Source of the DNA: a virus
DNA length: 52,757 bases
Strand: one strand, 5' to 3'
IMG/VR virus record: IMGVR_UViG_3300013014_000040
Coordinates: 1 to 52,757 of that record
Part shown: positions 999-45,423 of the stretch, one piece after another
Layout: every line of letters begins with the position of its first letter
How positions within the stretch are numbered: position 1 is the first letter of the stretch
Made by a program: the position numbers and the translations under genes
The notes under the pieces: model-generated
Told to the model about the DNA's origin: nothing
Databases searched by the model: none
What the model saw: only the letters and a program-made list of their open reading frames with translations

Positions 999-1553
999 TT
1001 ATTGTAACTGTGATTTAATTTTCATTTTAAGCATACGCTTAGCACTATCATCCAATGGTAGTCTTGATAGCATATCTATAACAAATGCTACTTGCTGTGT
1101 CGCTGGCTTGTTTTCGATAGCTTTAACTAGCATCTGATAAGCTTGAGTCTTTTCAACTTTTTCTGCTTTGCTGGCTAATGCACTGCCTGCCGCTGGCTTA
1201 TCTGATGCCGTATCAGAGCTTAATTCTAATTCATTAAGCTTGCCTTCTTTCATGTTAGAATCAGCTTTAAGACCACGTGCTACTTGACCACGTAATGCTG
1301 TTAGTTCATCAGCAGTGATACCAAATGTTTTCATTAGTGTAGTTAGTAATCCTACCTTTTGCATTCTAGGTAGTTTTGCAAGACGTTCAACGTCCATACC
1401 GCCTAATGCTTTATCGAGCATTGAACGTCCACCGCCTAAACTAGCACGTACCTGCGATCCTACATTTTTAATAAATGAGTTAGTAGTCGACTCGGCTAGT
1501 ATATTACGTACATGTTTACGTATTTCATTACGTAGTTCTTTTTCTGTTGCCAT
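999..1553 (-). CDS. Candidate capsid-targeted protein with (L/I)xE leader, unknown function
   Basis: 184 residues. The N-terminus MATEKELRNEIRKHVRNILAE|STTNSF is a short amphipathic leader ending in ILAE before Ser. In T4, gp21 protease cuts after (L/I)xE, and such leaders target internal proteins to the prohead. The remainder is Ala/Lys/Leu-rich and probably helical, with no recognised catalytic motif. An ATATTTAT motif and an AAAAAGGAAA ribosome site lie just upstream (1553-1575). Packaging in the head is an inference from the leader alone. Confidence 0.65.
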   Translation of the reverse strand: MATEKELRNEIRKHVRNILAESTTNSFIKNVGSQVRASLGGGRSMLDKALGGMDVERLAKLPRMQKVGLLTTLMKTFGITADELTALRGQVARGLKADSNMKEGKLNELELSSDTASDKPAAGSALASKAEKVEKTQAYQMLVKAIENKPATQQVAFVIDMLSRLPLDDSAKRMLKMKIKSQLQ

Positions 1554-1575: not shown

Positions 1576-3249
1576 CTATCTAAACTGAGATTCTAGTCCT
1601 TTAACAATAAATCGGCCGGTTATTTTAAACGGCTCGCCGTATATTTTAGGGTCTCTAATCACAATACCTTCATGTCCGCTAACTGGTCCTAAGGGTGAGC
1701 TTAAAGCTTCTAATACTGCATTACCCAATTCCATTGTAGCTAAATAAATAACAAAACCGTTAATTACTTTTTCTACATCTTTAGGATCGGCTAACATTTT
1801 AGCAGCATCTTCGCCTTGCGATAAAGCTAGCAATACTTGTTTTGATTGAGCCCCAATTGTCTTACCGTCAGCTAACTTAACCGTACTTTCTTTTTCATTA
1901 GTAGCTCCTGCTAACCATTGACTTAACGTCTTTGATATTTTTTTACCGTTAACGGTGATAGAATATTTTTTAGCTAGCTCCCCTGCAAAGTCTGGTTCTT
2001 TATCTAAGGTAGTCGGAACAGATCCTAGTACTTCGAACCCATATTCATTTGCAGTCGGGGTTAAATTGTTCAATAGATCTTGCATTGACTTCTTATTATA
2101 AGTTACCTCTTTAGTAGCACGACGCTTAGGTGTTACTTGTTCAATTTCTAATAATCCATGTATTGCTAAGAAGTTTTTATTATATGATAATACATTAGTA
2201 GAACCAGCTACATACTCAATATTGAATAAGATATTAGGGTTGTCCCATAGACCTAATGATTTAAGTTGAATGGTTATATCTGGTATAGCATCATTAAAGA
2301 TGTCTAATACTTTACCACCTGTTACTATCATGCCATGACCAGCACCGAACCGCGCTTCTAAGTCTGCCTTTGTTACGCCTTTAACATCTAAAGGTTTATT
2401 TGATCCACGGTCCATTACAAACTGGCGTCTGCCGGCAACGTTAATTAATCGTATAGAGGCATTTACTCCGTCAATCTTAACTGATGCAGGGCCTTTCTTA
2501 AGATACTCTGCTGCTCGCGCAAATACTTTAACTAGATCTTTTCCATTTTTTACTGAAGGAATATCAAACGGATGTGCCATATGGCCACCTGCGCCTCCCT
2601 CCACTATCAAATCTTTCAATTTCATTTTACTTTCCGTTAAGTTTTTTTTTATCATAGTATATGTAGCAGGATCATACCAACCCATTATTTTCTTAAATGT
2701 ATCGGGGCTACTAGTCTTTAAAGCATTTCTTAATGATGTACCCGACATTTCACCGAAGCCGGGAATATTTAATGATACATGGGGGGCTACAATTAAGTAT
2801 CCATGCTTATCATATCCTTGAAGATTATTTTTATTGCTTGCATACGGTTGAAAGTAAGAAGGATCTCCGCTCTTTTTAGGCTTCATAGAAAATCTAGGAT
2901 CATCATCCATATCTTTTTGACCTACCATGAATACTACTACTGTAGTAGCGGGGTCAAATCGACTTAATAGTTCCGTAGGAGTATAAGGTAGTTTAGTGTT
3001 TACTACATTTTTTATACCATACTTTGAAATAATAGTTTTCTTATCGGCAAAAGAAAATGGAGATCTGCCTTTTTCGGTTTTATCGCCGGTGGCTATAAAA
3101 GTATTTTCAGCTCCAAATTGATTTTGTAACCAGGTAAATGCTTTTGCATGATGATTACCAAACGGCTGAAAACGTCCAGGATAAACTGCTATAATACGTT
3201 TACCGGTATCTTCTGTTATAACTGATGCTAGCCAACTGCCTAAATTCAT
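1576..3249 (-). CDS. NMN-adenylyltransferase-like domain fused to a DNA/RNA ligase-like domain
   Basis: 557 residues in two enzymatic parts. Residues 20-205 look like a nucleotidyl (NadM/cytidylyl-type) transferase: GRFQPFGNHH at 25-34 replaces the usual GRFQPFHxGH, and GEMSGTSLR at 166-174 matches the ISGTxIR signature. Residues 218-557 are a covalent nucleotidyltransferase of the ligase superfamily: KIDG at 258-261 (predicted AMP-accepting Lys258), FNIEYV, EGIVIR at 527-532 and FKITG at 541-545. The N-terminus ends in VITE13|D, and the junction reads MKLKDLIVE217|GG; both fit the (L/I)xE rule of T4-type prohead proteases. Met209 also has a ribosome-site-like CGGAAAG before it, so the ligase part may be made separately. 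Likely roles are nucleic-acid repair or NAD metabolism; the substrate is unknown. Confidence 0.8.
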   Translation of the reverse strand: MNLGSWLASVITEDTGKRIIAVYPGRFQPFGNHHAKAFTWLQNQFGAENTFIATGDKTEKGRSPFSFADKKTIISKYGIKNVVNTKLPYTPTELLSRFDPATTVVVFMVGQKDMDDDPRFSMKPKKSGDPSYFQPYASNKNNLQGYDKHGYLIVAPHVSLNIPGFGEMSGTSLRNALKTSSPDTFKKIMGWYDPATYTMIKKNLTESKMKLKDLIVEGGAGGHMAHPFDIPSVKNGKDLVKVFARAAEYLKKGPASVKIDGVNASIRLINVAGRRQFVMDRGSNKPLDVKGVTKADLEARFGAGHGMIVTGGKVLDIFNDAIPDITIQLKSLGLWDNPNILFNIEYVAGSTNVLSYNKNFLAIHGLLEIEQVTPKRRATKEVTYNKKSMQDLLNNLTPTANEYGFEVLGSVPTTLDKEPDFAGELAKKYSITVNGKKISKTLSQWLAGATNEKESTVKLADGKTIGAQSKQVLLALSQGEDAAKMLADPKDVEKVINGFVIYLATMELGNAVLEALSSPLGPVSGHEGIVIRDPKIYGEPFKITGRFIVKGLESQFR

Positions 3250-8254: not shown

Positions 8255-8262
8255 ATAAATAT
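8255..8262 (-). promoter_or_regulatory. ATATTTAT upstream motif
   Basis: GATATTTATA followed by TGAAATTAGGAATGATGA before the ATG at 8235. It touches the stop region of the gene upstream. Confidence 0.4.
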
Positions 8263-11200
8263 CAGGAATAACTTATTTTAGAGTATCCATACTCCTTTTT
8301 GATTTCAATAAGCTTGTCTACAATATCTCGCATAGCATCGATATGTGATATACACATAATGAATCCAAACTGGGACTTAAGATAATCAAACAATGCGAAC
8401 ATGCTATTTAAATTATCAGAATCTAATACGCCAAATCCTTCGTCTATTGCTAAGAAGTTTGGTCTTGGTAAACTTGATATTTTAATTAATGATGTACGAA
8501 TTGCCAATGAAGCAATAAACTTTTCCATACCAGAACTTAATTCTAACGGCCAAAAGTTATCTTGGTCATAAACAATGTAACCGTTAATATTCTTTCCGTC
8601 AGTTTCTAACAATATAGAAAAGTCCACAATTTGCGCTAGTATATTATTTATCTCAGCTTCAATTTGCGGTAATGCTTTTGTAATCAATCGATACGGTACG
8701 CCGTCTCTTTTAACCGATAACAAATAATATTCATAGCCTTTATACTGTATTTCTAAATCATGTAATCTTGTAATAGCTTTTTCTGCATCATGTTTAGCTT
8801 GTTCAGCCATTAATATCTTTCCAGATATCTGTAAAATATTCGCTTCTAATGATTTTATTTCGTTTGTTAACCCAGCAATCTCTTGTTGATGCTCTAAAAT
8901 TTCTTCGTTCTTTTCTTCGTTAAATTTAAGGTCATCAATATGTTGTAATGAGTCATTTAAGAATCGATTCAATTCTTGCAAATCTGCATTAACGTTTTGA
9001 ATTGCTGATTTTAGTTTTTGATCTTTTAATTGTAATTCAGATTGCTTTAAAATATATTTCCCTTCTAATGCCTTTAATTCATGTATCGTTACGTAAGCTT
9101 TATTAATGCTATACATATCACACTTCGGCCAAATCGCAGCAATCTCTGCTTGTAATGTCATATATTCTTTTTGTAACTCAGGCAATCGTTCACTAGCTTT
9201 TTTAGTATCTTGTAACCATGGATTAGCCATGCAATATTTACAATTTGGATCCCATTGATGTTTTTCCAATTTTGAAACCATTTTTTCGGCATGTACAATA
9301 TCCATATCCAATAACTTTTCTCTCGATGTCAATTCGCGATGTGTATCAATATTGTTTAGAATCGCTTGTTTTTCAGCATCTAACAAATCTAAGTCATATA
9401 TACTTAGTGTATGAGCCGTACTATCAATATTGATAATTACAGTATCGAGTTGGGCTGTTATGTCATCTACCTGCGCTAATAAACTATCTAATTCAATTTG
9501 TTTTTTATCAACTTTAACACGTATATTATCTGGCTTTTCAATGCCAGTGCCAATAGTCTTTAGTTCTTTGGTCATGCTAATAACTATCTCAGTCAGATCA
9601 TCTTTCATAGATTCTAACTCAGACTTTTGTTTAGTAATATTTGCTAACGACTTAGATAAATTCGTTATGGATTGTCCAGCTTCCGCTAATGATGTACTAT
9701 GATCTATACGTTTATATTCTCTAATTAAAGCAGCTGTCTCACGAATTTCTTCATTTGCTATCTGATACTGTTGTTCAAATACGTCTATATCTAAAAACTG
9801 AGTAAGTAGTTCTTTACGTTCACGTTGTGACATATCAATAAACCCAGTGTTATTACTTTGCAAAGATAAAGCCGTTAACACAAAGTCTTCATATGAACCT
9901 AAATACTGACGAATTATTTTATTTGTAGTATCACGCTGGTCTCCATTTAATAACACTTCTTCGCCGTTTTCATCAATAACCCAAAAGTTAACATCAACTT
10001 TAACATGGCCCTTATTATTCTTTTTACCAGTACGTTGTATAAAATAATCTTTACCGTCTAATTCAAATTGAAACTTACAATCAAAATTACTACGTTTATT
10101 ATTTAATACATGTATCGCTTTTGTAGTACGACTACATCTATCAAAGCAGCAAAATGCCAATGCATCTAATAATGTAGATTTTCCAGATGCATTCGGAGCA
10201 AATAAGCCATATGACCCGTTCAATGTAGAAAAATCAACGACATTATCATTACCATAACTAAACATATTACTAAACTCAAACATCTTAGGAGTCCATAATG
10301 CATTTCTAGTTATTTCTGATTCAGGTAACTTACCGTGCACAGTACGATTAATATGTCTAACACAATCCAATAGTTCTTCATCTAAAGCATATTCATCATT
10401 TAAGTAATCTGTAATAGCGGTGTTTTGCCATTCCACATCACGAATATCACCAAAGTTAACTTTTTGCTTTGAATCATAATTGCTTAAAGCATTTACTTTA
10501 TGAATTGCAATCTCCTGCACTTTATATTGTTTACGTAATTCTGATACTATAGTTTTTAATACAGATGTTTCAGTATCTTTAACCTTTAATCTTAATTTTG
10601 GCTTCTTAGGTACATCATTTGACGGGTTAAGTATAACACCATTATCAATTTCAAATGTATAATAACCATGGTCATTAACAAGCTCAATAAACTCGGAAGT
10701 ACTAGTCGCCAAGTCCCATACTAATATTCCATGGTGCAAAGCTTCGCCATGGTTTTGTTGAATTAAACTACCCGGATATGCAATTGTTTTCTTGCTATCT
10801 AAGAATTGTAACTTATGAATATCTCCTAGCAATACTAGATCATGGCCTTCAAATAATTCATTTGTAACATGTGTATTACTTAAGGTCATTCCAATATCAG
10901 TTTGAGCTAAATTTACAGCTCCGTGGTGTAAAGCAATCTTATATTTTCCATCAAAATCTTTAGCTTTTATGTATTCAGATGGCTTATTAAAGATAGACAT
11001 AACGTTAAAGTGTACATCAGATATACAATATATCCCGTTGTCTTTAAGGTAATGTAATTGAGGGTGGTTAAGGGCCTTAACAATAGGGGAAATGGCGTCT
11101 AACCGAGTCGCGTTATTAAGGTTACAATCATGATTTCCGCAAATTATTATAGTAGGTGCAATATCCGCTAAATTCTGAAAAAAATCTGATACTACATGTA

Positions 11201-11408
11201 CTAGTTCTGGTGACATATCTGTTTTAGCGTGGACAATATCTCCAGCCACATAGATTAAACTGTCTTTTGTTTTTGTCTTTTTAATGTAAGTATATAACTT
11301 TTTAAATACTTGCTGGTATTCATCGTGTCGTTTAACATTCCTAACATGTACATCTGCAATGTGATAAATTTTATCAATATGCTCTAACCCAATATCTATA
11401 GTAAACAT
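8262..11408 (-). CDS. Mre11-Rad50 (T4 gp47-gp46 type) single-chain fusion
   Basis: 1048 residues combining both halves of the SbcCD/Mre11-Rad50 recombination nuclease. Residues 1-340 form the metallophosphoesterase: DVH (19-21), GDIVH (56-60), GNHD (91-94), HHG (161-163) and GDIH (195-198). Residues 375-1048 are the SMC-like ATPase: Walker A APNASGKST (404-412), a long coiled coil with a zinc hook CKYC at 723-726, an ELSSGMEK signature (956-963) and Walker B FLAIDE (985-990). T4 uses two proteins, gp47 (about 340 residues) and gp46 (about 560), to resect DNA ends for recombination-dependent replication. Here one open frame spans both with no stop. It overlaps the primase stop by 13 bases, so the two are co-expressed. 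Confidence 0.92.
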   Translation of the reverse strand: MFTIDIGLEHIDKIYHIADVHVRNVKRHDEYQQVFKKLYTYIKKTKTKDSLIYVAGDIVHAKTDMSPELVHVVSDFFQNLADIAPTIIICGNHDCNLNNATRLDAISPIVKALNHPQLHYLKDNGIYCISDVHFNVMSIFNKPSEYIKAKDFDGKYKIALHHGAVNLAQTDIGMTLSNTHVTNELFEGHDLVLLGDIHKLQFLDSKKTIAYPGSLIQQNHGEALHHGILVWDLATSTSEFIELVNDHGYYTFEIDNGVILNPSNDVPKKPKLRLKVKDTETSVLKTIVSELRKQYKVQEIAIHKVNALSNYDSKQKVNFGDIRDVEWQNTAITDYLNDEYALDEELLDCVRHINRTVHGKLPESEITRNALWTPKMFEFSNMFSYGNDNVVDFSTLNGSYGLFAPNASGKSTLLDALAFCCFDRCSRTTKAIHVLNNKRSNFDCKFQFELDGKDYFIQRTGKKNNKGHVKVDVNFWVIDENGEEVLLNGDQRDTTNKIIRQYLGSYEDFVLTALSLQSNNTGFIDMSQRERKELLTQFLDIDVFEQQYQIANEEIRETAALIREYKRIDHSTSLAEAGQSITNLSKSLANITKQKSELESMKDDLTEIVISMTKELKTIGTGIEKPDNIRVKVDKKQIELDSLLAQVDDITAQLDTVIINIDSTAHTLSIYDLDLLDAEKQAILNNIDTHRELTSREKLLDMDIVHAEKMVSKLEKHQWDPNCKYCMANPWLQDTKKASERLPELQKEYMTLQAEIAAIWPKCDMYSINKAYVTIHELKALEGKYILKQSELQLKDQKLKSAIQNVNADLQELNRFLNDSLQHIDDLKFNEEKNEEILEHQQEIAGLTNEIKSLEANILQISGKILMAEQAKHDAEKAITRLHDLEIQYKGYEYYLLSVKRDGVPYRLITKALPQIEAEINNILAQIVDFSILLETDGKNINGYIVYDQDNFWPLELSSGMEKFIASLAIRTSLIKISSLPRPNFLAIDEGFGVLDSDNLNSMFALFDYLKSQFGFIMCISHIDAMRDIVDKLIEIKKEYGYSKISYS

Positions 11409-26900: not shown

Positions 26901-27439
26901 TAAAAGCTCCCAACTTGAGTTAATACTAACGGTGTAATATCATTATTATTTATAGGAATAACTTGTATAGTATTCTCAGACAACAGTACATTGATAACAC
27001 GTTCTGCCGGAAAATTAGTGACTCTATATATAATCTTTACTGAAAATATATGGCGGTCGACGTTACGGCTAATATCTAAATCTACTAGTTCAATATACGG
27101 TACCCAACGCGCTATAGCACTACGTAATGAATCATCTACAGCGCCAACAAGATCTTCAGTGTTCTGTTCAAATAATGTATGGCGTAATGTAGTTCCAAAT
27201 TCTGGTTGCATATATCGTTCACCTACTTCAGTCATAACTAAATTAATTAAATTACTAGTCGACTGTTCTTCTGTAGTTTTTGACATATTAAATAACGTAC
27301 CGCCATTAGATGCGACCGAATTATATACTGATGTACTAGTTTGTCCTGCGGCTGCACGGTTAAACGGTAGTTTAATACCGATAGTACGATCTGGAAATAA
27401 ATTGATCGGCTGATATCTATATATTGGTCTATTAGACAT
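26900..27439 (-). CDS. 25: Baseplate wedge protein gp25-like
   Basis: 179 residues; T4 gp25 has 132, and the extra residues are at the N-terminus. EVGERYMQPEFGTTLRHTLF followed by a helical DSLRSAIARWVPYIELVDLD is the gp25/GPW core, including the conserved Glu-Phe-Gly. gp25 starts sheath polymerisation and locks the wedge through gp6. Overlaps by one base at both ends with its neighbours, giving tight coupling with gp6. Confidence 0.92.
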   Translation of the reverse strand: MSNRPIYRYQPINLFPDRTIGIKLPFNRAAAGQTSTSVYNSVASNGGTLFNMSKTTEEQSTSNLINLVMTEVGERYMQPEFGTTLRHTLFEQNTEDLVGAVDDSLRSAIARWVPYIELVDLDISRNVDRHIFSVKIIYRVTNFPAERVINVLLSENTIQVIPINNNDITPLVLTQVGSF

Positions 27440-27909
27440 TAACGCATACCTTTCTTCTTATCAATCGCTTTCATTAACGCCGAATAATCTTTTGTCATGG
27501 CATTAACAACATTCGCTACATTTTCATTTCGTACGTTTACCGGAGCTCCGTTTATATCTTGCAAAGGAGCTACAGCTGGAGTAGCAAACGACATATCAGG
27601 TCCAGCTGATCTCATTCCGCCGAACGCTTGTGCCATTTCACTTTTAAAGTCCATTGTAGCCCATTCATCTTGAATCAATGGCGAGGCCGCTGTCTCATTT
27701 AATAAGTCGTTTAACATAGGATCTTTAACAAATGTTTTCGGCTTACTAGGTTTAACTGCTTGTTCTGACATTCGAATGCCATGGTCAATAATTTGTTTAG
27801 GTGCAACACGTTGTTCATTTAATACACGTTTCATTTCCGTACGAACTGCTGTCTGTACTTCTTCGCGAATGAGTTTACGTAAAGCATTAAAAAATGATTT
27901 TGTTTCCAT
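27439..27909 (-). CDS. Small protein with IREEV-type leader next to baseplate genes
   Basis: 156 residues. The N-terminus METKSFFNALRKLIREEVQ...MKRVLNE|Q resembles, in a longer form, the leader found on proteins at 37.6-45.4 kb, and ends in VLNE before Gln, a possible prohead-protease site. The rest is Ala/Met-rich without known motifs. It could be a head-targeted protein or a baseplate assembly factor; position favours baseplate, leader favours head. Confidence 0.55.
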   Translation of the reverse strand: METKSFFNALRKLIREEVQTAVRTEMKRVLNEQRVAPKQIIDHGIRMSEQAVKPSKPKTFVKDPMLNDLLNETAASPLIQDEWATMDFKSEMAQAFGGMRSAGPDMSFATPAVAPLQDINGAPVNVRNENVANVVNAMTKDYSALMKAIDKKKGMR

Positions 27910-37674: not shown

Positions 37675-38070
37675 TTATTTTTGTTTTGGTATCGGAGTTG
37701 TTCGGCGACCTCCTTTGGTTCTCATCTCCTCTAACTCATCAGCTACATCTAGTTCAGCTAAAATGAAACGAGTCAATACTCCCTTCTCTCCAATTAAAGA
37801 TGCTAATGTCTTATATTGATTATATGGAACATCACTACCAGCAGCATCTTTTGCTGTCTTAGCCATTGTAGATAATCTAGCGGTAATTTCATTACGAAGT
37901 TGTGAACGTAATAAAACTCCATACCCTGTAATATGTACTTCAGGATCGACTGGATCGAAACTCTTTGGATCTGTTAATGAACCGTAACGTCCTGCGCCTT
38001 CGGCTAATACATCACGTACTTCTGATTCAATTAACTTAAACAATTTATTTTTAAAATCTTTCCCTTCCAT
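37675..38070 (-). CDS. Candidate capsid-targeted protein with (L/I)xE leader
   Basis: 131 residues. The leader MEGKDFKNKLFKLIESEVRDVLAE|GAG ends in VLAE before Gly, matching the T4 prohead-protease rule and resembling the leaders at 43.5-45.4 kb. The mature part is helical with several Ala/Leu repeats and a basic tail (GGRRTTPIPKQK). No enzyme motif. Packaging is inferred from the leader. Confidence 0.6.
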   Translation of the reverse strand: MEGKDFKNKLFKLIESEVRDVLAEGAGRYGSLTDPKSFDPVDPEVHITGYGVLLRSQLRNEITARLSTMAKTAKDAAGSDVPYNQYKTLASLIGEKGVLTRFILAELDVADELEEMRTKGGRRTTPIPKQK

Positions 38071-38093
38071 ATTTTTCCTTTAAAATTAATATA

Positions 38094-38119
38094 AGACCCA
38101 TAACTTATGCTATGGGTCT
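38094..38119 (-). terminator. Perfect 9-bp hairpin between genes
   Basis: AGACCCATA and TATGGGTCT enclose an eight-base loop. No strong U-run follows on the minus strand (TATATTAATTTT), so it may be a weak terminator or an mRNA stabiliser after the histone-like gene. Confidence 0.5.
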
Positions 38120-38131
38120 ATATTAGTATAT

Positions 38132-38317
38132 TTACGATCTTTTTGATTCAGTTACCGATTCTTTACGGTATTCAGTAACAAGCTTCTTAAGATCTCCAAT
38201 TGATTTACGTGCTCTAGTAGCAGCTGATTTGTTTCCTTTTTCAGCAAACTTTGCATGGTTCTCTTCAAACTCAGTCCAAAGGTTTTTCAATTCTGTAAAT
38301 AGTTCTTCTGTTGTCAT
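38132..38317 (-). CDS. Hc1-like (Bacteroidota-type) histone H1 protein
   Basis: 61 residues. ELKNLWTEFEENHAKFAEKG followed by NKSAATRARKSIGDLKKLV and a Lys/Arg-rich end match the short histone H1-like Hc1 proteins common in Bacteroidota, where KGNKAAxTRxRK is the hallmark. These small basic proteins bind and compact DNA. A phage copy could condense host or phage DNA. It is good evidence for the host group, though not proof. Confidence 0.7.
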   Translation of the reverse strand: MTTEELFTELKNLWTEFEENHAKFAEKGNKSAATRARKSIGDLKKLVTEYRKESVTESKRS

Positions 38318-38338
38318 AACATTCCTTTATTTTGGTTA

Positions 38339-38560
38339 TTAATATTCATCGTCGTCTATAAGGAAATCTTCCTCATGGCGAATATGAAATTCTTTTTGAA
38401 ATTCAATTTCTAACATATCTTCATCAGACATATCATCGGCTTGGAATATAAGATCTCCGTCTAAATATACCTCACCAATTAGTGTTTCATCATCAATGAA
38501 AAATTCCAATTCTTCACCGATAAAATTATCACCTGTCATTATGTTCTCTAATGTAATCAT
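38339..38560 (-). CDS. Very acidic small protein
   Basis: 73 residues with a strong excess of Asp and Glu and almost no Lys (net charge about -22), ending DFLIDDDEY. Such acidic phage proteins sometimes mimic DNA and block host DNA-binding proteins; nothing here proves it. It lies immediately upstream of the histone-like gene. Confidence 0.6.
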   Translation of the reverse strand: MITLENIMTGDNFIGEELEFFIDDETLIGEVYLDGDLIFQADDMSDEDMLEIEFQKEFHIRHEEDFLIDDDEY

Positions 38561-38565
38561 CTTAT

Positions 38566-38573
38566 ATAAATAT
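38566..38573 (-). promoter_or_regulatory. ATATTTAT upstream motif
   Basis: GATATTTATA only a few bases before the ATG at 38560; closer than most copies. Confidence 0.3.
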
Positions 38574-38579
38574 CCTATG

Positions 38580-38747
38580 TTAGTCTTTCATTAGTTTATC
38601 AAAGGCATATTCCCATTGCTCTAACACATCTTTGTATTTGTGTTTTTCTTGCCATTTCATACGCTCTAATTGAGCCTGGAACTTATCCTCTAATTCATAT
38701 TCTGCAACTACAGAATGGATATGATAAAAACGGTCTTCTCTGTTCAT
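38580..38747 (-). CDS. Small hypothetical protein
   Basis: 55 residues, MNREDRFYHIHSVVAEYELE..., charged and helical with aromatic residues. The reading frame ends just before the ATATTTAT site of the next gene. AAAGAGGT precedes its ATG, a fair ribosome site. Confidence 0.5.
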   Translation of the reverse strand: MNREDRFYHIHSVVAEYELEDKFQAQLERMKWQEKHKYKDVLEQWEYAFDKLMKD

Positions 38748-38773
38748 ATAATACCTCTTTAAAATATATATGA

Positions 38774-39094
38774 CTAAGCTTTGTTTATCATGGCTCTTTG
38801 AACAATTAGGTCTCTTTTCCTGGCAAAATCTTGGTAAGAATGGGAGTCGTAGTTAGCCTCTAAAAGCCGTATATTTTGTATTTTGAAGCCCCTATAACCG
38901 AGGTTTAAACGCTCCTTTAAACTTTGTATACATCGGCTACTCTTCGGGTTTTCGAAGTCGCAATGAAAGGCATATTCTATCCAATCTTCAGCATGTGAAT
39001 TTACCAGAAAAACACGGTATTTATGGCAATATGGAAACAGGTCATTTCTTAATGTTTCCGCGGATAAATTGCTTTTGTTCTTTGATTTTGGCAT
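38774..39094 (-). CDS. Hypothetical protein
   Basis: 106 residues with a Lys/Ser-rich start (MPKSKNKSNLSAETLRNDL) and an Arg-rich C-terminus. It overlaps the gene upstream by 53 bases, a long overlap that makes the exact start uncertain. No domain recognised. Confidence 0.5.
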   Translation of the reverse strand: MPKSKNKSNLSAETLRNDLFPYCHKYRVFLVNSHAEDWIEYAFHCDFENPKSSRCIQSLKERLNLGYRGFKIQNIRLLEANYDSHSYQDFARKRDLIVQRAMINKA

Positions 39095-39359
39095 CTAATT
39101 CTGATTTATTAATTTCTTCAGATTTCGTCGGTTTTTCCGGTGAAATTGGCGTAATTACACCTCCATCTATTCTTGCAACAATCCACCATGGCGCTTTCTT
39201 ATGTGCATCTTTTTGCCATGCACAATTTGGTATTATAGTTCCATCGGTTTTACGGAGATCATAGTGTGAGTCAGGCCGTATTGCTATGACCTGACTCTCA
39301 TATTTTGCACCAAGAAATTGTACTACAACACGATCGTTTATCTTTAACTTCTTTGACAT
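39042..39359 (-). CDS. Small protein with beta-barrel (SH3/KOW-like) N-terminus
   Basis: 105 residues. LKINDRVVVQFLGAKYESQVIAI resembles the turn of a small SH3/KOW-type fold; the rest is a charged linker (KPTKSEEINKSELDAK). Possibly nucleic-acid binding; the family is not recognised. Confidence 0.55.
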   Translation of the reverse strand: MSKKLKINDRVVVQFLGAKYESQVIAIRPDSHYDLRKTDGTIIPNCAWQKDAHKKAPWWIVARIDGGVITPISPEKPTKSEEINKSELDAKIKEQKQFIRGNIKK

Positions 39360-39374
39360 ATACTTATTTTTAAG

Positions 39375-39391
39375 ATACTTAATTTAAGTAT
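39375..39391 (-). other. AT-rich palindrome
   Basis: ATACTTAA and TTAAGTAT around a single base, in the gap between the basic small gene and the KOW-like gene. Could be a weak terminator; no U-run follows. Confidence 0.3.
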
Positions 39392-39426
39392 AAAATTTCA
39401 AATAAACAAATCTTTTTTCAGAAAAG

Positions 39427-39567
39427 TTATCCTTGACCTACATTTAGTTTTTTATAGTTCTTAGCACGTTTGTTCTTGCTTTGTTTTGTCTTTGCATGAA
39501 CACCTGGACGACGTTTTTTCGGTGGTTTACGGTATATGCCCGTGTCTTTTACCTTTGCCTTTGCCAT
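39427..39567 (-). CDS. Very basic small protein
   Basis: 46 residues, about 18 Lys/Arg, reading MAKAKVKDTGIYRKPPKKRR and ending QSKNKRAKNYKKLNVGQG. Proteins of this shape recur in T4-like cyanophages and marine phages; function not established, probably nucleic-acid or ribosome associated. The ATG lies ten bases after the stop of the enzyme gene upstream. Confidence 0.65.
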   Translation of the reverse strand: MAKAKVKDTGIYRKPPKKRRPGVHAKTKQSKNKRAKNYKKLNVGQG

Positions 39568-39577
39568 TATAGTATCC

Positions 39578-40174
39578 TTACTTTATATCAGACGAGCTAA
39601 TTAAAGTATAAGTAAAGTTGTTACCATGAATGTCTTTTGCTTTACGGCAAATTTTCATGAAAGCTTCAAAATCTGCAGACTTCTTGAATACTTGGCATCC
39701 TTCGCTCCAGTTCTCAACATATGTTGAATCTGCGCCAGCTTTATGAATGTTAATTCCAAATACACCTTCCTGTATTTTTTTCTCATCATACACTAAATCC
39801 TTGTTAGCATCGCGCCAAACCTTAACTGGCTTGTTCTGTCCTAATGCTTCATATTTTCCTTGGTGAAGACGGATAATATGCGAGCTGCGATACTGGCCTT
39901 CTACAAGACGAGCAACACCTGCTGCATTATGATATTCTTTAACTCCCTTCTTCCCTGGGTCGGTTGTAGCTGCCCAAGAATGGAATTTCCAAACACCGTT
40001 TTCTTTGTAAGAAATTGTCAATGCATCATCAAACACATTCGTAACAGTTTGACCAGTACTGGCATTTCTAATTCCTATGATATTGACATCATAGCCTTTG
40101 TTGCTAGCATCTTCAAACCAAACATATCCTTTGGCTTTAACGGCTGCTTCAACTTGTTCTCTGGTAAAATTCAT
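39578..40174 (-). CDS. YkuD-like/cell-wall enzyme, candidate endolysin
   Basis: 198 residues. FGINIHKAG with His144, then ENWSEGCQVF with Ser157 and Cys160, gives the H...SxGC arrangement of L,D-transpeptidase/YkuD-like folds. No signal peptide or membrane segment, so release would need a holin. It could cut or cross-link peptidoglycan. The spacing between His and Cys (16 residues) fits the family; the overall match is not close, so the exact activity is open. Confidence 0.6.
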   Translation of the reverse strand: MNFTREQVEAAVKAKGYVWFEDASNKGYDVNIIGIRNASTGQTVTNVFDDALTISYKENGVWKFHSWAATTDPGKKGVKEYHNAAGVARLVEGQYRSSHIIRLHQGKYEALGQNKPVKVWRDANKDLVYDEKKIQEGVFGINIHKAGADSTYVENWSEGCQVFKKSADFEAFMKICRKAKDIHGNNFTYTLISSSDIK

Positions 40175-40185
40175 AACACTCCTTT

Positions 40186-41337
40186 TTATTTATATTGTTT
40201 ACCTGTCGTCGCATTTATCAGTGTCAAATTGACATTTTTATCTTGTAAACGATTCTGAACAGCATCCAGGTTTGCTAGGCTGTCGTCCATGAATTTTATA
40301 TTAGTGTAACCTCTGTTTATTTGTTTCTCAATCCAATCAGCCTTCTTCTCAGGATCACTGCTTCCAGTACCAACTACATAAGTATTAATGCCGTATGAAT
40401 CACGTAAATGTTTCATGATAGGAAAGGCAATTCTACGCGCTGTTAGTATTGTTGTCTTAATAGACGGATTGGCTAATGACTTTTTAATTTGTTGAATATT
40501 CCTCATTATAGGAAGTGACTTCTTAATGATTTTATCGAAGTTAGAAAAGTCATATTTTTCGCCTGGCTTTAACTTATGTGTAGCAAATGCATGGCTATCT
40601 AATTCATATGTACTTCCATCCGGACGTTGAACGACTACAGACGATTGTGTCTTAACTAGTGTATCATCGAAATCATACACATGTAATGTTTTACCCTGCA
40701 CTTCATTAAGTCCTTTTACCTTCTGGTATCCAGATCCGTACGGAGATGATTTACCGGTATCAGTATATGTATCCGGGTCTAGATTTTCACGTTTCTTCTT
40801 GTTACCCCAGTTTGCAGCGCCTACCTTACGACATGCACTCAAAGCCAGAGAGCCGTACGCTGATGGCCATACATCATATCTAGCTTTTACTTTATGATAA
40901 CAAGCATCCTTTTCACCCTTAGCTTCAGTTTTAACATTGATAGCCTTTTTACCTGGCTTACCTTTACCGGAATACTTATCACGTTTTCTACGAACTGCGG
41001 ATTCTTTTTCTTTATCGGACATTGCAGATGCCTTTGATGCTGGTACACATTTTGGATACGCACGTTTACCGCCCGATCTAGAACCTGAATCTGCAGATGC
41101 ACCGCATGCGGGATGACCGCCACCTGGTTTAGTACGTGATATATCTACCCAACGTTGCTTAACCCATTTACGTAAATCTTCTTGTAATGGATCTGTTAAT
41201 ATACCTTCATGCATACGTAGAGCCGTTAAGTATTTTTTTAACGCAGTTTCATTGCCATCAGTGCAGCCGACTTTCTTTCCACTGTCCTTCTTATACACGC
41301 AATACTTATTATCTACTTTTCTATAGGTATATGGCAT
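40186..41337 (-). CDS. HAD-family phosphatase fused to a Cys/Lys-rich phage domain
   Basis: 383 residues. Residues 1-185 form a basic, Cys-containing region with HPACGASADSGSRSGGKRAY then PKCVPASKASAMS, a pattern found in many T4-like phage virion proteins. Residues 205-383 form a HAD hydrolase: YDFDDTLV (Asp212, Asp214), ILTARR (motif II Thr), a Lys near 333 and KFMDDSLANLD (motif IV). Polynucleotide-kinase phosphatases have this type of HAD domain, but no kinase part is seen. It may process 3'-phosphates, which would fit the ligase encoded at 1576-3249; that link is an inference. Confidence 0.75.
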   Translation of the reverse strand: MPYTYRKVDNKYCVYKKDSGKKVGCTDGNETALKKYLTALRMHEGILTDPLQEDLRKWVKQRWVDISRTKPGGGHPACGASADSGSRSGGKRAYPKCVPASKASAMSDKEKESAVRRKRDKYSGKGKPGKKAINVKTEAKGEKDACYHKVKARYDVWPSAYGSLALSACRKVGAANWGNKKKRENLDPDTYTDTGKSSPYGSGYQKVKGLNEVQGKTLHVYDFDDTLVKTQSSVVVQRPDGSTYELDSHAFATHKLKPGEKYDFSNFDKIIKKSLPIMRNIQQIKKSLANPSIKTTILTARRIAFPIMKHLRDSYGINTYVVGTGSSDPEKKADWIEKQINRGYTNIKFMDDSLANLDAVQNRLQDKNVNLTLINATTGKQYK

Positions 41338-41339
41338 AA

Positions 41340-42101
41340 TTAAAATTTTATTTTATCAAATATGTTTTTACGGTTAAGTACGAACGTATCCAGCTTCGTT
41401 TCAACCTTCATATCAATTGGCAGTTTCGCTAAATTCTTTTTTATAAATGCTTGATATAATCTACCACGGCGACTATCAAGGCTAGAAGTAGGGGTATCTG
41501 AGTTTACATTAGTATCAGATTTAGGTGCTATATATATTGTCTGAACTACACACGTGTATTCATCATCATTAATTGATATAACTAGTCCTTCTACACGATC
41601 TATATAATCTTTTATACATTCTATAACTGTAGACATTACACGATATTGTTCATTGAGATTAGTTTCCGGTTCTTCATGTGCAACATCTGTTGATATTGTA
41701 AATGATACATTAGTTCTTACTAATAGTACACCAGCTTCCGATTTACTTTTAGGCATATATGTATGGTCATGACCAGCGTTATCTAGTTGTGTTGCAAGAT
41801 TAATAATATAAAAGGCTTTTGGATTAACTTCTGATTGTGCTATATACTCAACCTTAATCCAACCAGTTTCTTTAATATTATGACGTCCCATTATATTTTG
41901 TGCGGAAAGTTTAATCTTTCTAACAGGGTCGGAAGCAGATCTCCACTTCAACGGCTTAGCAGTGCTTTCACCTACTTCGTTAATAGCTTCTTCGTCAATA
42001 GGAACACAGTTAGGTACTTGTCTATCGCCTTTCTTTTTCATACCGACCTGCTTATAGCCTTTCCAGCATTCTTCAGTCAATATGTTTTTAAGCTTAAGCA
42101 T
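41340..42101 (-). CDS. Candidate capsid-targeted protein with CWKGYK motif
   Basis: 253 residues. The leader MLKLKNILTE|E ends in ILTE, a possible prohead-protease site. Right behind it ECWKGYKQVGMKKKGDRQ then VPNCVP is a Cys/Lys-rich motif also seen near the ends of T4-like phage structural proteins. The main body is mixed alpha/beta with a HDHTYMPKSKSEAGVLLVRT stretch. No known enzyme motif is seen. Confidence 0.6.
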   Translation of the reverse strand: MLKLKNILTEECWKGYKQVGMKKKGDRQVPNCVPIDEEAINEVGESTAKPLKWRSASDPVRKIKLSAQNIMGRHNIKETGWIKVEYIAQSEVNPKAFYIINLATQLDNAGHDHTYMPKSKSEAGVLLVRTNVSFTISTDVAHEEPETNLNEQYRVMSTVIECIKDYIDRVEGLVISINDDEYTCVVQTIYIAPKSDTNVNSDTPTSSLDSRRGRLYQAFIKKNLAKLPIDMKVETKLDTFVLNRKNIFDKIKF

Positions 42102-42148
42102 TTGGTTCCATCTTTACATCTGTTTTAGTGAGAGCCGATTAAGTTTTA

Positions 42149-43225
42149 TCATTGTATTAACTCGTATTTAATACCGTCACCTTTTGGTTCTGCAAATACA
42201 GTTGCATTTTCAAACAACATGAGCATTTTTTTAGCTTTTTTTAAATCTGTTTTTTCATAAGCATCAATACTCATATTTCTATCCTTGAATATGTCAATCA
42301 ATTCATCAAAGCTAACAGTATCAAGAATATCTAGAAAAGTTGATCGTTCAGTTTGATTTATTTCAATTCCAGCATCCGTATACTCATCTATCGGGGCATC
42401 AAGCTTATGACTGACTGATACAATACCCAATGTACCGGTACGTGCACTTAATCCTGCTGTAAGCTTAGCTATTTGTTTTATACCCGCGGGTATATTGCCA
42501 CTGAATGCAACAAACGATCCTAGCGTACCACCTATGAAATTTTTGTCATTTACATCTTCACCATTTAATGGGATAACTACTGTTTGCGCTTCGCTTTGCG
42601 TGCTGCCACCATAAAATCCTATCGTGCCACCAAAGAATGAAGCAACTTTAGGTATATGTTTCGACCACATAGCTTGACTACCTTGATATAGTATAGTGTC
42701 ACTTTCTAACACGCCGTATTTATATAAAAGAGTATCATATAAAAACGCACCAAAGCCGGCGCCTTTATATTCTTTGGCTATATTACTCCAATGAACTACT
42801 TGACCTTCCACGCCATATATGCGTTGCATACTATACTCACCTGTACTAGGAGTTGTTTCAATACGGCCTACATATACTGTTTCTGCAGGTCGTGATAAAT
42901 CAAATAGGTTATGCCAGAATCTATCATCAACTTTATTGCGTATAATATAATAGCTACCTTGACTGTCAAATGCATTGTCCTTGATAAAACCTCGCAGTCT
43001 ACCATCTAACGGGTTATTTTTAACCTCTGGTTTTGCTAACCAATATTCAGACCGGTTCCAAAACATCGATGTTGAATCTTTACCGTATAAGCGTTTAACT
43101 AAAGAATCAAATTTAGGATTCTCTGCTACAAAGTCATCCATTAGTTCAGCTGATGTGCTGTCATTTCCAGCGTCTCCTGACATTAGACTAATTTCCTTAA
43201 CGATATCTTTAAGCTTCATTGACAT
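42149..43225 (-). CDS. GNAT-like acetyltransferase domain protein with leader
   Basis: 358 residues. The N-terminus (M)SMKLKDIVKE|I parallels the MKLKNLLKE|A leaders, although Val replaces Leu/Ile at the third position. Residues about 135-195 (VVHWSNIAKEYKGAGFGAFL, then ILYQGSQAMWSKHI) have the acetyl-CoA-binding look of GNAT proteins. The C-terminal 120 residues have an unrelated helical part. If packaged, it could modify a host protein on entry; the target is unknown. Confidence 0.6.
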   Translation of the reverse strand: MSMKLKDIVKEISLMSGDAGNDSTSAELMDDFVAENPKFDSLVKRLYGKDSTSMFWNRSEYWLAKPEVKNNPLDGRLRGFIKDNAFDSQGSYYIIRNKVDDRFWHNLFDLSRPAETVYVGRIETTPSTGEYSMQRIYGVEGQVVHWSNIAKEYKGAGFGAFLYDTLLYKYGVLESDTILYQGSQAMWSKHIPKVASFFGGTIGFYGGSTQSEAQTVVIPLNGEDVNDKNFIGGTLGSFVAFSGNIPAGIKQIAKLTAGLSARTGTLGIVSVSHKLDAPIDEYTDAGIEINQTERSTFLDILDTVSFDELIDIFKDRNMSIDAYEKTDLKKAKKMLMLFENATVFAEPKGDGIKYELIQ

Positions 43226-43226
43226 A

Positions 43227-43466
43227 TTACTTTTTTCTACCTAATGTAAACCCACCTGCAAATTTATCTAAACTAGTAGCACCTAATGCAACAATTACAA
43301 TCATCTCAACTGATGATATTAAATTTTCATCAGGCTTAATAGAGCAACGGCACGCTGTAGCTACCATAGTACCACATAGAAACAACATTCCAATCATAGC
43401 AATAATACGCTTGGTAGATTGTTGTCCTTCTTTATCTGCAAACAATTGTTTAAAAAAATCTTTCAT
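43227..43466 (-). CDS. Two-pass membrane protein, holin candidate
   Basis: 79 residues with membrane segments at about 20-40 (IIAMIGMLFLCGTMVATACR) and 50-69 (VEMIVIVALGATSLDKFAG), with charged ends. Small size, two segments and a charged C-terminus (TLGRKK) fit class II holins. It starts a promoter-like leader and ends one base from the GNAT-like gene. The YkuD-like enzyme lies 3 kb downstream. Confidence 0.6.
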   Translation of the reverse strand: MKDFFKQLFADKEGQQSTKRIIAMIGMLFLCGTMVATACRCSIKPDENLISSVEMIVIVALGATSLDKFAGGFTLGRKK

Positions 43467-43480
43467 ACATATCCTTTAGA

Positions 43481-43488
43481 ATAAATAT
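43481..43488 (-). promoter_or_regulatory. ATATTTAT upstream motif
   Basis: GATATTTATT then CTAAAGGATATGT before the ATG at 43466; directly after a terminator, so it is well placed to restart transcription. Confidence 0.5.
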
Positions 43489-43497
43489 CTAGCTAGT

Positions 43498-43543
43498 AAA
43501 AAAGCCACCCGGTTGGATGGCCTTAATATATAGTCTGGGTGGC
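43498..43543 (-). terminator. Rho-independent terminator
   Basis: GCCACCC and GGGTGGC form a 7-bp GC-rich stem with a 26-base loop, followed on the minus strand by TTTTTT. It ends the unit containing the leader-bearing small genes. The strongest terminator seen here. Confidence 0.75.
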
Positions 43544-43570
43544 GTGTGTTTTTATAAGCGATTCAATTGT

Positions 43571-43822
43571 TTAATCAGCAGCATATTCATCATTTGCTTC
43601 TTGTTTCGCAGCATCAATAATATCAATAATGCAATATGCTAATCTATCCGCGGATTTATTGTCTAAGTTTACACCTATCGACTGTAACTCCTTTTCTAAT
43701 GCGGCTACGGCAGCTTTAACTTCTCCTTCTAGTCTAGGAGTAATGGCATTTAAAATAGCTCCTTCATGAAGGGCTTTACTAACCTCTTCACGGATAATTT
43801 GTTTTAGTTGTTTTGAATTCAT
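43571..43822 (-). CDS. Candidate capsid-targeted protein with MNSKQL leader
   Basis: 83 residues from the ATG at 43822, chosen because AAGGAC lies just before it and because its leader MNSKQLKQIIREEVSKALHE|G matches those of two other genes here. The site ALHE|GA fits the (L/I)xE rule. The mature part is acidic and helical (AAVAALEKELQSIGVNLDNK). Function unknown. Confidence 0.65.
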   Translation of the reverse strand: MNSKQLKQIIREEVSKALHEGAILNAITPRLEGEVKAAVAALEKELQSIGVNLDNKSADRLAYCIIDIIDAAKQEANDEYAAD

Positions 43823-43832
43823 TTTATTGTCC

Positions 43833-43883
43833 TTATATATGTATTTTTTCACGGATAATTTGTTTTAGTCGACTTGAGTTCAT
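43833..43883 (-). pseudogene. Truncated copy of the leader (16-codon remnant)
   Basis: Reads MNSSRLKQIIREKIHI then stop. The 34 bases at 43850-43883 differ from the leader of the neighbouring gene (43789-43822) at about four positions. No protease site follows, so this is either a decayed gene start or a tiny peptide. The gene upstream stops just before its ATG. Confidence 0.55.
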
Positions 43884-43886
43884 AAT

Positions 43887-44429
43887 TTATTTACCAATTC
43901 TAGGTTTAATATCAGAGGGGAGAGGTCCTGTCGATGTAATTTTAATATCATCATTCTTAAGAAATACTTTTTTAAGTAAATGTCGTTGTTTTGAATCTAA
44001 ATTATGTTTACGCGAAAAAAATTCTACATCAGTCGAAGTTGGGTTATCAACTGTCGAGCTTTTAAATCTTTTAATAAGTTGTTTATCGCTAGATGATAGA
44101 TAAGGTACAGTCACTGTATCTTTAATAAGCGATACTACAGCGCTTAAAGGACCTGTCATGGTAACTTCATCTTCCATGTTTCCAGCAGCTAACTCTTTAG
44201 CATCTCTACGTCCCGCTTTTTTGTAGATTTGTGTTAAGATATCTTCAACCTCATTACGTGCATTTTCATCTTTTGGGTTTGATATACGTACGTCCATCGC
44301 TACTTTTAATTTGTTTATAAGAATACTACTGATAGTAACACTCTTACCGTCAATACTGATGGTTTCAGCTTCTTTCAATACGTTCCAAATCTCTTCACGT
44401 ATAATTTGTTGTAGTTGTTTTGAATTCAT
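43887..44429 (-). CDS. Candidate capsid-targeted protein with MNSKQL leader
   Basis: 180 residues from the ATG at 44429, chosen because its leader MNSKQLQQIIREEIWNVLKE|A agrees with the other family members; the frame extends further upstream without an equally good start. The mature part includes SISIDGKSVTISSILINKLK and ends basic. No enzyme motif recognised. Confidence 0.65.
   Translation of the reverse strand: MNSKQLQQIIREEIWNVLKEAETISIDGKSVTISSILINKLKVAMDVRISNPKDENARNEVEDILTQIYKKAGRRDAKELAAGNMEDEVTMTGPLSAVVSLIKDTVTVPYLSSSDKQLIKRFKSSTVDNPTSTDVEFFSRKHNLDSKQRHLLKKVFLKNDDIKITSTGPLPSDIKPRIGK
44368..44429 (-). repeat. Leader repeat, copy 2 (62 bp)
   Basis: Matches 45324-45385 at 59 of 62 positions; both encode MNSKQLQQIIREE...VLKEA. 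Homology is confined to the leader, with unrelated sequence beyond. Confidence 0.8.
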
Positions 44430-44439
44430 TTCATTATCT

Positions 44440-44649
44440 TTACAATTCATGATAACCAGCATTAGCCTGGTTGATGTAAACTTCTGCTTGAGAAATATGG
44501 CCTTGTATCCAAGCCGGAAGATTCTTTTCCGTCTTACCAACCTTTTGTGAAAGTTCTACAGCTGAACGTGCAATTACCAACAATTGTTGTTGAACCATTT
44601 TAACTTCATGGTCTTCGTCTGCTTCTTTGAGTAAGTTTTTTAGTTTCAT
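44440..44649 (-). CDS. Candidate capsid-targeted small protein with MKLKNLLKE leader
   Basis: 69 residues. MKLKNLLKE|ADEDHEVK has the candidate site LKE|A after only nine residues. The mature part is one helix of mixed charge with an Ala/Gly/Tyr end. It overlaps the next gene of the same leader type by four bases. Function unknown. Confidence 0.6.
   Translation of the reverse strand: MKLKNLLKEADEDHEVKMVQQQLLVIARSAVELSQKVGKTEKNLPAWIQGHISQAEVYINQANAGYHEL
44621..44649 (-). repeat. Short leader repeat, first copy (29 bp)
   Basis: Differs from 44851-44879 at a single base and encodes the same MKLKNLLKEA start in two adjacent genes. Confidence 0.75.
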
Positions 44650-44879
44650 TTGCGTAAATCTATTTGTTTTAGCCGAGCTTGTATTTGAACTAACTCACGT
44701 TTTGATAGTATCAACCATTTTCTAATATCTTTATGTTCAATAAGTCTAGCTGCGTCATCAATAGATTGCATTAACTCATCAACTGATGAAACAACATTTA
44801 CTAACGCTTGATGTTGTTTTGGTTCTAAGTAAGTTGTTAACTGACCAGAAGCTTCTTTAAGTAAGTTTTTTAGTTTCAT
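44646..44879 (-). CDS. Candidate capsid-targeted small protein with MKLKNLLKE leader
   Basis: 77 residues with the leader MKLKNLLKE|ASGQL, then an alpha-helical body (VVSSVDELMQSIDDAARLIE) and a basic end. Stop and start overlap with neighbours at both ends. The mature parts of this protein and the adjacent 69-residue one do not look alike, although their leaders are nearly identical. Confidence 0.6.
   Translation of the reverse strand: MKLKNLLKEASGQLTTYLEPKQHQALVNVVSSVDELMQSIDDAARLIEHKDIRKWLILSKRELVQIQARLKQIDLRK
44851..44879 (-). repeat. Short leader repeat, second copy (29 bp)
   Basis: Partner of 44621-44649; one mismatch in 29 bases. Confidence 0.75.
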
Positions 44880-44881
44880 AA

Positions 44882-45385
44882 TTATACTTTAAACTTTTTA
44901 ACGACATCTGCTAACTTGTTATAATGCTTAGCAACGAAAGCAGGATCTATTTCATAGACAGAATACCCAAAACTCGATAAAGCTTCGTTAACATCCGTTA
45001 GAGCTTTTGCAAGCTTTTTATCTTTAAGCATTTCAGCGCTATCATCATCACTACATATAGCAAAAAGTGTATCTGTGTTATCGGATAAAAGATCTAAAAC
45101 CTTTTTGAAGTCTGCGTTGTCACCTGTTTTATAAAATTTAGAGAAGTCCAATAAGAATTTTGCAAGATACTCAATACCTTTAAACTTTTTAAAGCCTGAT
45201 ATAGTTTCGCCTTCATAGTCTTCATAGTCATCATCCAATACAGAAGCTGTTAGTGGAGTTGTTACTAGTTTAAGTATCTGGTCAAATTTGTTAAAGTCTA
45301 AATCTTTTAACGGCGTTGACGATGCTTCTTTCAATACGTTACTAACCTCTTCACGTATAATTTGTTGTAGTTGTTTTGAATTCAT
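44882..45385 (-). CDS. Candidate capsid-targeted protein with MNSKQL leader
   Basis: 167 residues. MNSKQLQQIIREEVSNVLKE|ASSTP is the clearest form of the long leader. The mature part is acidic and helical, with aromatic residues and several Asp/Leu runs. It is the first gene of the leader-bearing group as transcribed, just after an ATATTTAT motif. Function unknown. Confidence 0.65.
   Translation of the reverse strand: MNSKQLQQIIREEVSNVLKEASSTPLKDLDFNKFDQILKLVTTPLTASVLDDDYEDYEGETISGFKKFKGIEYLAKFLLDFSKFYKTGDNADFKKVLDLLSDNTDTLFAICSDDDSAEMLKDKKLAKALTDVNEALSSFGYSVYEIDPAFVAKHYNKLADVVKKFKV
45324..45385 (-). repeat. Leader repeat, copy 1 (62 bp)
   Basis: 59/62 identical to 44368-44429; a third, more diverged copy lies at 43761-43822. 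Confidence 0.8.
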
Positions 45386-45415: not shown

Positions 45416-45423
45416 ATAAATAT
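45416..45423 (-). promoter_or_regulatory. ATATTTAT upstream motif
   Basis: AATATTTATT about 30 bases before the ATG at 45385, farther than other copies; a second ribosome site TATAAGGAC lies closer. Confidence 0.35.

Follow-up and report, generated by a model that had tools for sequence, protein, structure and literature searches.

Leaders resembling T4 capsid-targeting sequences on unrelated proteins, and at a predicted cut site inside a two-enzyme protein, of an uncultured T4-like phage

Why do proteins of a T4-like phage that otherwise look unrelated begin with almost the same few residues, and why does the same stretch of residues recur between two enzyme domains of one protein? The virus record IMGVR_UViG_3300013014_000040 (52,757 bases, analysed as a whole and called the window here) is part of the genome of a T4-like phage with a contractile tail; nearly all of its genes lie on the minus strand. 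Its baseplate wedge protein shares 50% identity with the counterpart in Microcystis phage Mel-JY01 and 42% with the one in Flavobacterium phage immuto, and the window as a whole matched at least 599 stretches of viral contigs. Leaders ending in (L/I/V)xE open eight genes at 37,675-45,385 and one gene at 999-1,553. They belong to two classes, a short one (MKLKNLLKE/A, the slash marking the predicted cut here and below) and a long one (MNSKQLQQIIREEVxxVLKE/A). Judging from their sequences, these leaders are probably capsid-targeting propeptides of the T4 type which are removed by the prohead protease, including the copy inside the two-enzyme protein. The leader genes are the following.

44882..45385, minus strand: long class, MNSKQLQQIIREEVSNVLKE/A, leader 45326-45385
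44646..44879, minus strand: short class, MKLKNLLKE/A, leader 44853-44879; cargo unrelated to that of the next gene
44440..44649, minus strand: short class, MKLKNLLKE/A, leader 44623-44649; the cargo is a DHExxMA...LPxWVQxHI domain
43887..44429, minus strand: long class, MNSKQLQQIIREEIWNVLKE/A, leader 44370-44429
43571..43822, minus strand: long class, MNSKQLKQIIREEVSKALHE/G, leader 43763-43822
42149..43225, minus strand: short class, MSMKLKDIVKE/I, leader 43193-43225
41340..42101, minus strand: short class, MLKLKNILTE/E, leader 42072-42101, directly followed by a CWKGYKQVGMKKKG module
37675..38070, minus strand: long class, MEGKDFKNKLFKLIESEVRDVLAE/G, leader 37999-38070; relatives have other leader genes at this position
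999..1553, minus strand: long class, MATEKELRNEIRKHVRNILAE/S, leader 1491-1553

All eight leaders named in a preliminary description of this DNA were recovered, namely LLKE/A (44646-44879 and 44440-44649), VLKE/A (44882-45385 and 43887-44429), ALHE/G (43571-43822), VLAE/G (37675-38070), ILTE/E (41340-42101) and ILAE/S (999-1553). To these we add the leader of 42149-43225, two sites at the N-terminus and in the interior of the two-enzyme protein (1576-3249) and a start at 27439-27909. Mechanically called open reading frames (ORFs) begin further upstream in two cases, where the true leader starts are the ATG at 44429 and the ATG at 43822. A short N-terminal leader of about 10-20 residues ending in (L/I)xE is what characterizes the capsid-targeting sequence (CTS) of T4; the short class fits this form fully, the leader of 42149-43225 ending in IVKE/I.

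The similarity of the leaders extends to their DNA. Those starting at 45385 and 44429 are identical over their first 60 nucleotides (nt) apart from 2 codons, and the two MKLKNLLKEA leaders (44646-44879, 44440-44649) agree at 28 of 30 nt, the single difference in the nine leader codons being 1 synonymous base. BLASTP of these two proteins against each other gave a match limited to the shared first 10 residues. A leader pair in the relative G005 is identical at all 30 of 30 nt, and a match between the cargo proteins is absent. T4 itself, used as a control, exhibits the same pattern: the leaders of ipII and ipIII are 30/30 nt identical, and only 19 of the next 60 nt agree, which is the level of chance. 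The same leader thus stands on unrelated mature proteins, as in T4, and the earlier suggestion of an exchangeable tag on otherwise unrelated proteins is borne out by near-identical leader DNA on non-homologous genes. On the evidence of these alignments the DNA encoding a leader moves as a unit from one gene to the next by copying, which would make new cargo easy to recruit. Behind another start, the domain of 44440-44649 is found again in locus L114, and it also occurs within larger proteins in further loci, indicating that the same cargo can bear different leaders. Ordinary gene duplication followed by fast divergence of the cargo, with no exchange of leader DNA, would be an unlikely explanation of the similar leaders: an adjacent pair of genes in G007 does have both the leader and a homologous cargo in common, but in the pairs of the window and of G005 the leader DNA is retained at 28-30 of 30 positions, synonymous sites included, while cargo homology is undetectable.

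Whole leaders are strongly specific for protein starts, whereas the bare motif proves little. A bare [LI]xE[AGSE] was present within the first ~36 residues of 13 of the 70 ORFs of the window (4.1 expected by shuffling), and in 3 of 6 genomes it was not significantly enriched at starts as compared to positions after internal Met. Bare (L/I)xE was therefore dropped as evidence for leaders, being too common. The pattern of the short class (M..KLKxLLxE) was found at 24 of 1102 starts versus 4 of 2455 internal Met (p = 3e-9), that of the long class (..IIREExxxVLxE) at 10 of 1102 starts versus 0 of 2455 (p = 8e-6). Loci L124-L178, fetched through the two-enzyme protein and without reference to leaders, exhibited a weaker enrichment at starts (p = 0.005 for the short and 0.003 for the long class), and the internal matches there are mostly the junction of the two-enzyme protein itself. 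In the control phages, which served as negative controls only, the patterns occurred in 0 of 49 ORFs of crAss001 and 1 of 56 of SPBc2. Scanning DNA with a degenerate version of the long leader gave 0 matches.

The prohead genes of relatives carry the same marks. No peptidase S77 was found among the proteins of the window, in agreement with the preliminary description, which had placed the prohead protease gene outside it; the same model finds S77 in relatives, namely in G008 (3.7e-32) and in 3 contigs fetched for an exact match to MKLK[ND]LLKEA. In G035, the gene opening at the stop codon of the protease begins with MKLKNLLKEAS, and the gene that follows the protease in G008 starts with MSKDNKIKLKALLNEA / MSKDNKIKLKALLNEAF. 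Putative scaffold proteins, assigned by their position before the capsid gene, begin with MKDLLKEAIADAKA or MQDLLKEAIADAKA (pattern M[KQ]DLLKEA). An alignment of the gp23-like capsid proteins of 4 relatives revealed an invariant Glu at residue 64 within [LI][IV][ST]E/[AS], adjoining the position of the T4 gp23 cut at E65, and this site predicts the specificity of the protease of the clade. The gp21-type protease and the (L/I)xE sites in capsid and scaffold proteins, which the preliminary description had looked to the full genome for, are encountered in relatives as S77, the residue-64 site and the leader-like starts of putative scaffold proteins.

Relatives also place diverse cargo behind the leaders, including a PF18760 ADP-ribosyltransferase (ART) domain (2.8e-14) and a DUF6934 protein (1.2e-8), and tandem cassettes of leader genes are present in G008 (76.5-80.6 kb), G007 (51-63 kb) and L115. 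Kinase-like and 2H-phosphoesterase-like impressions of the cargos at G007 59884-60462 and G008 57420-58508 were unconfirmed and are not used here; the former leader protein (L096 2884-3462) looks kinase-like by eye (LGSGDFGEAY...DIRPENMGYD), with Pfam support absent. One neighbourhood could be compared through a marker gene.

38132..38317, minus strand: small conserved basic gene (KSAATRARKS), 46-52% identical in relatives

In the window, in G005 and in G008 a leader gene comes directly after this marker, and the cargo differs. For the cargo of the window at this place (37675-38070) no relative was found among the loci compared. Behind the marker gene the place is conserved, but what is tagged there changes.

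The second part of the question concerns a gene near the other end of the window.

1576..3249, minus strand: two-enzyme protein of 557 amino acids, N-terminal MNLGSWLASVITE/D (3211-3249), NadM/NadD-like adenylyltransferase and ligase-like domains
2599..2625, minus strand: internal leader and predicted prohead-protease site MKLKDLIVE/GG between the enzyme domains, the ligase-like domain being encoded at 1576-2598

The protein has 55 relatives in viral contigs, and the fusion is common among them. In its first half GRFQPxGxHH is invariant, and Foldseek matched it to NadM (2qjo, 6.6e-4) and several NadD, while a match to the cytidyltransferase family phrog_395 reached 7e-4; both the nucleotidylyltransferase fold and the signature of an NMN/NaMN adenylyltransferase of the HIGH superfamily are present. 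In the second half, compared with ATP-dependent RNA and DNA ligases, the KxDG motif is invariant together with other residues of the ligase type, the invariant positions being K258, D260, G261, E345, E527, G528 and K542. Fold matches of this half to T4 RNA ligase 1 (2c5u) and a DNA ligase are weak (about 0.012), and a search of PDB with the sequence profile of the domain gave no credible match. The linker between the domains varies in length and sequence, yet of the 21 non-redundant relatives 19 have (L/I/V)xE/GG at its end. The residue before the predicted cut (P1) is Glu in these 19 (background 7.7%, p = 1e-19), and the P3 residue is L, I or V in all 21. In the window the junction is a complete short leader by itself, MKLKDLIVE. 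A cytidylyltransferase-like protein of Mel-JY01 has the predicted site IIAE/GG. These data point to a capsid-cargo polyprotein that would be cleaved by the prohead protease.

Alternatively, (L/I)xE before GG might belong to the structure of the ligase-like domain, with the protein working as one uncut chain. The motif adjoins a strictly conserved GG and the fusion is frequent, as this explanation would expect, but several relatives speak against it and make it improbable. L170 and L172 encode the two halves in separate genes, and the ligase-like protein carries an N-terminal leader in place of the junction, MISFKQFVLE/GG or MITFKQFLLE/GG, a form close to MKTYQEFIAE/A of T4; the unfused adenylyltransferase of L170 starts with MKFDQLVNE/I. 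The ligase-like half of L176 and of L177 opens at M-GG without a leader, indicating that LxE is dispensable for the ligase-like fold. Furthermore, Cys replaces Glu in two junctions (LLLC/GG in L090 3229-5682 of G008, LLVC/GG in L142 153-1892), and an AlphaFold2 (AF2) model puts the motif into a segment, residues 207-222, with a predicted local distance difference test score (pLDDT) below 50, flanked by better-defined parts.

The same behaviour is seen in a second small module, CWxGYKQVGMKKKG. It stands behind N-terminal leaders in 41340-42101 of the window, in L111 and in L112, and lies inside the two-enzyme protein of others; in 7 of its 8 occurrences LxE is found at most 8 residues upstream (p = 2e-6). 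The C-terminus of 41340-42101 exhibits a weak DUF6934 match. The 383-amino-acid protein of ORF 40186-41337 combines the module CYHKVKxRYDVWPSAYGS (phrog_727) with a part resembling HAD/polynucleotide kinases; it has two possible junctions, VKTE/A and GLNE/V, which suggest another multi-part cargo protein.

For T4 it has been described that the 10-residue CTS of IPIII binds the prohead core and that gp21 cuts L/I-x-E (PMC9026906). In the phage studied here, the N-terminal 9-24 residues would bind the prohead core during head assembly, and an S77 (gp21-type) prohead protease would cut after (L/I/V)xE and so release the cargo within the head. The freed cargo would stay there and enter the host with the DNA. 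At the internal junction the same protease would split the adenylyltransferase from the ligase-like domain in the prohead. Packaging, cleavage, injection and the action of the cargo are predicted here from sequence. The T4-type capsid-targeting reading proposed earlier is supported by the shared leader DNA together with the T4 ipII/ipIII control, by the S77 and prohead-operon neighbours, by the capsid site and by the diversity of the cargo.

Several observations weigh against this reading. The protease, capsid and scaffold genes all lie outside the window, and their state in the phage's own genome is deduced from relatives. The leader patterns were written after inspection of these genomes, and in the papers searched no virion proteomics was found for this phage, immuto, Mel-JY01 or other relatives. 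The two junctions with Cys instead of Glu also count here, as do the residues after the predicted cut (P1'), which are of a less usual kind, Ile after the leader of 42149-43225 and Asp or Gln after others. Finally, a start like that of the long class opens a gene of the baseplate operon, so that this class is perhaps not capsid-specific.

27439..27909, minus strand: long-class-like start in the baseplate operon, METKSFFNALRKLIREEVQTAVRTEMKRVLNE/Q (27814-27909), ending ...KRVLNE/Q

Its leader Glu is conserved in 22 aligned relatives, with N, T, S, Q or R as P1' residue. This protein may be a further head protein and substrate of the prohead protease, or it may be a sign that the long class is not restricted to capsids. 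An improbable explanation is that the leaders are generic amphipathic N-terminal helices for oligomerisation or docking, also to the tail, with Glu endings resulting from composition: the frequency of bare (L/I)xE and the baseplate-operon family would agree with it, but intact leader DNA on unrelated genes, a P1 Glu that is fixed while the surrounding linker varies freely, the same motif at the T4 cut position of the capsid protein and the short leaders of prohead-operon genes speak against it.

As to the remaining cargo of the window, no relatives in viral contigs were found for 44882-45385 or for 42149-43225. The preliminary description had listed a GNAT-like enzyme among the cargo (42149-43225). 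Despite the GNAT-like look of the sequence, neither Pfam, PDB nor phage tblastn searches gave a match supporting this identity, and the assignment is unconfirmed; a single-sequence AF2 model (pLDDT 34) was unusable. The family of 999-1553 is kept beside the two-enzyme gene, and in the relatives seen its leader ends in a site of the [LI]xE type.

Leader genes and structural genes may be expressed together. The element ATATTTAT is present in 15 copies on the coding strand and 0 on the other, and 12 copies are located within 60 nt upstream of starts (p = 2e-11); examples are those at 45423, 43488, 29410, 27935, 16806, 12864, 8262, 5443, 3273 and 1575. Besides structural genes, it stands before the gene of the two-enzyme protein, before 999-1553 and before the gene that opens the cassette at 44.4-45.4 kb, where it lies 38 nt upstream of the leader gene 44882-45385. 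The T4 late promoter TATAAATA was found only 6 times on the coding strand, and ATATTTAT fits better. It is likely a late promoter element unlike TATAAATA of T4, and its placement fits a shared late expression of structural and leader genes. An observation on a different gene concerns the 1048-amino-acid ORF at 8262-11408, which matches an SbcC-like subunit over residues 374-1047; its N-terminus (HIADVHVRN...YVAGDIVH) resembles an SbcD-type nuclease, and the equivalents of T4 gp47 and gp46 may be fused here.

The leaders resemble the short N-terminal propeptides ending in (L/I)xE of T4 IPI, IPII, IPIII and Alt, also in that near-identical leader DNA stands on unrelated mature parts and an ART is among the cargo of relatives. 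They differ in belonging to other sequence classes (MKLKxLLxE and a longer amphipathic class of ~20 residues), in the larger number of tagged genes, in the tandem cassettes and in the use inside a two-enzyme chain, packaging here being predicted only. Head maturation by T4 gp21 (S77) is paralleled by relatives that encode S77 beside scaffold and gp23-like genes, with a capsid (L/I)xE site at 64; here, in contrast, the protease gene lies outside the contig and cleavage is a prediction. A review on the assembly of the T4 head (PMC9026906) suggests that with the CTS various proteins can be loaded by T4-like phages, and ARTs encoded near head genes were predicted to be packaged (PMC9503650). Given the CTS-tagged internal proteins of T4 and these ARTs, the leaders would be further members of a known device.

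Phage polyvalent proteins (Iyer et al. 2017, PMC5512222) likewise unite several enzyme domains in one putatively injected chain. For them, release by peptidases embedded in the chain has been proposed, whereas the junction described here fits the motif of the prohead protease; domain searches detected no embedded peptidase in the two-enzyme protein, which for this reason falls outside that class as defined by several domains plus an embedded peptidase where processed. Processed head proteins of the SPN3US type (PMC10052503) are internal head proteins, too, matured by a prohead protease that cuts after Glu, but most bear just one propeptide, at the N-terminus, and this is usually long (111-254 residues). 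For the proposed splitting of a two-enzyme cargo inside the head, retroviral proteases that process packaged polyproteins offer an analogy. While the tags themselves are a known device, the use of the leader as a joint inside the two-enzyme protein looks new; a literature search confined to open-access papers found no cargo polyprotein in which a prohead-protease site separates two enzymes.

On balance, we are somewhat inclined to think that one unit of leader plus cut site has two uses across a large group of uncultured T4-like phages, as a movable tag for loading the capsid and as a joint within the chain, where the prohead protease would split multi-enzyme cargo inside the head before injection. 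The leaders provide a sequence rule for spotting proteins of such phages that are head-packaged and probably injected, most of these proteins being annotated as hypothetical now, and may supply new natural tags with which to load T4-like heads. In the cultured relatives immuto and Mel-JY01 it becomes directly testable which proteins are the first to enter the host. The findings suggest a way in which phages may build and deliver sets of enzymes, by placing a leader of 30-60 nt onto a new gene or a cut site between two enzymes.

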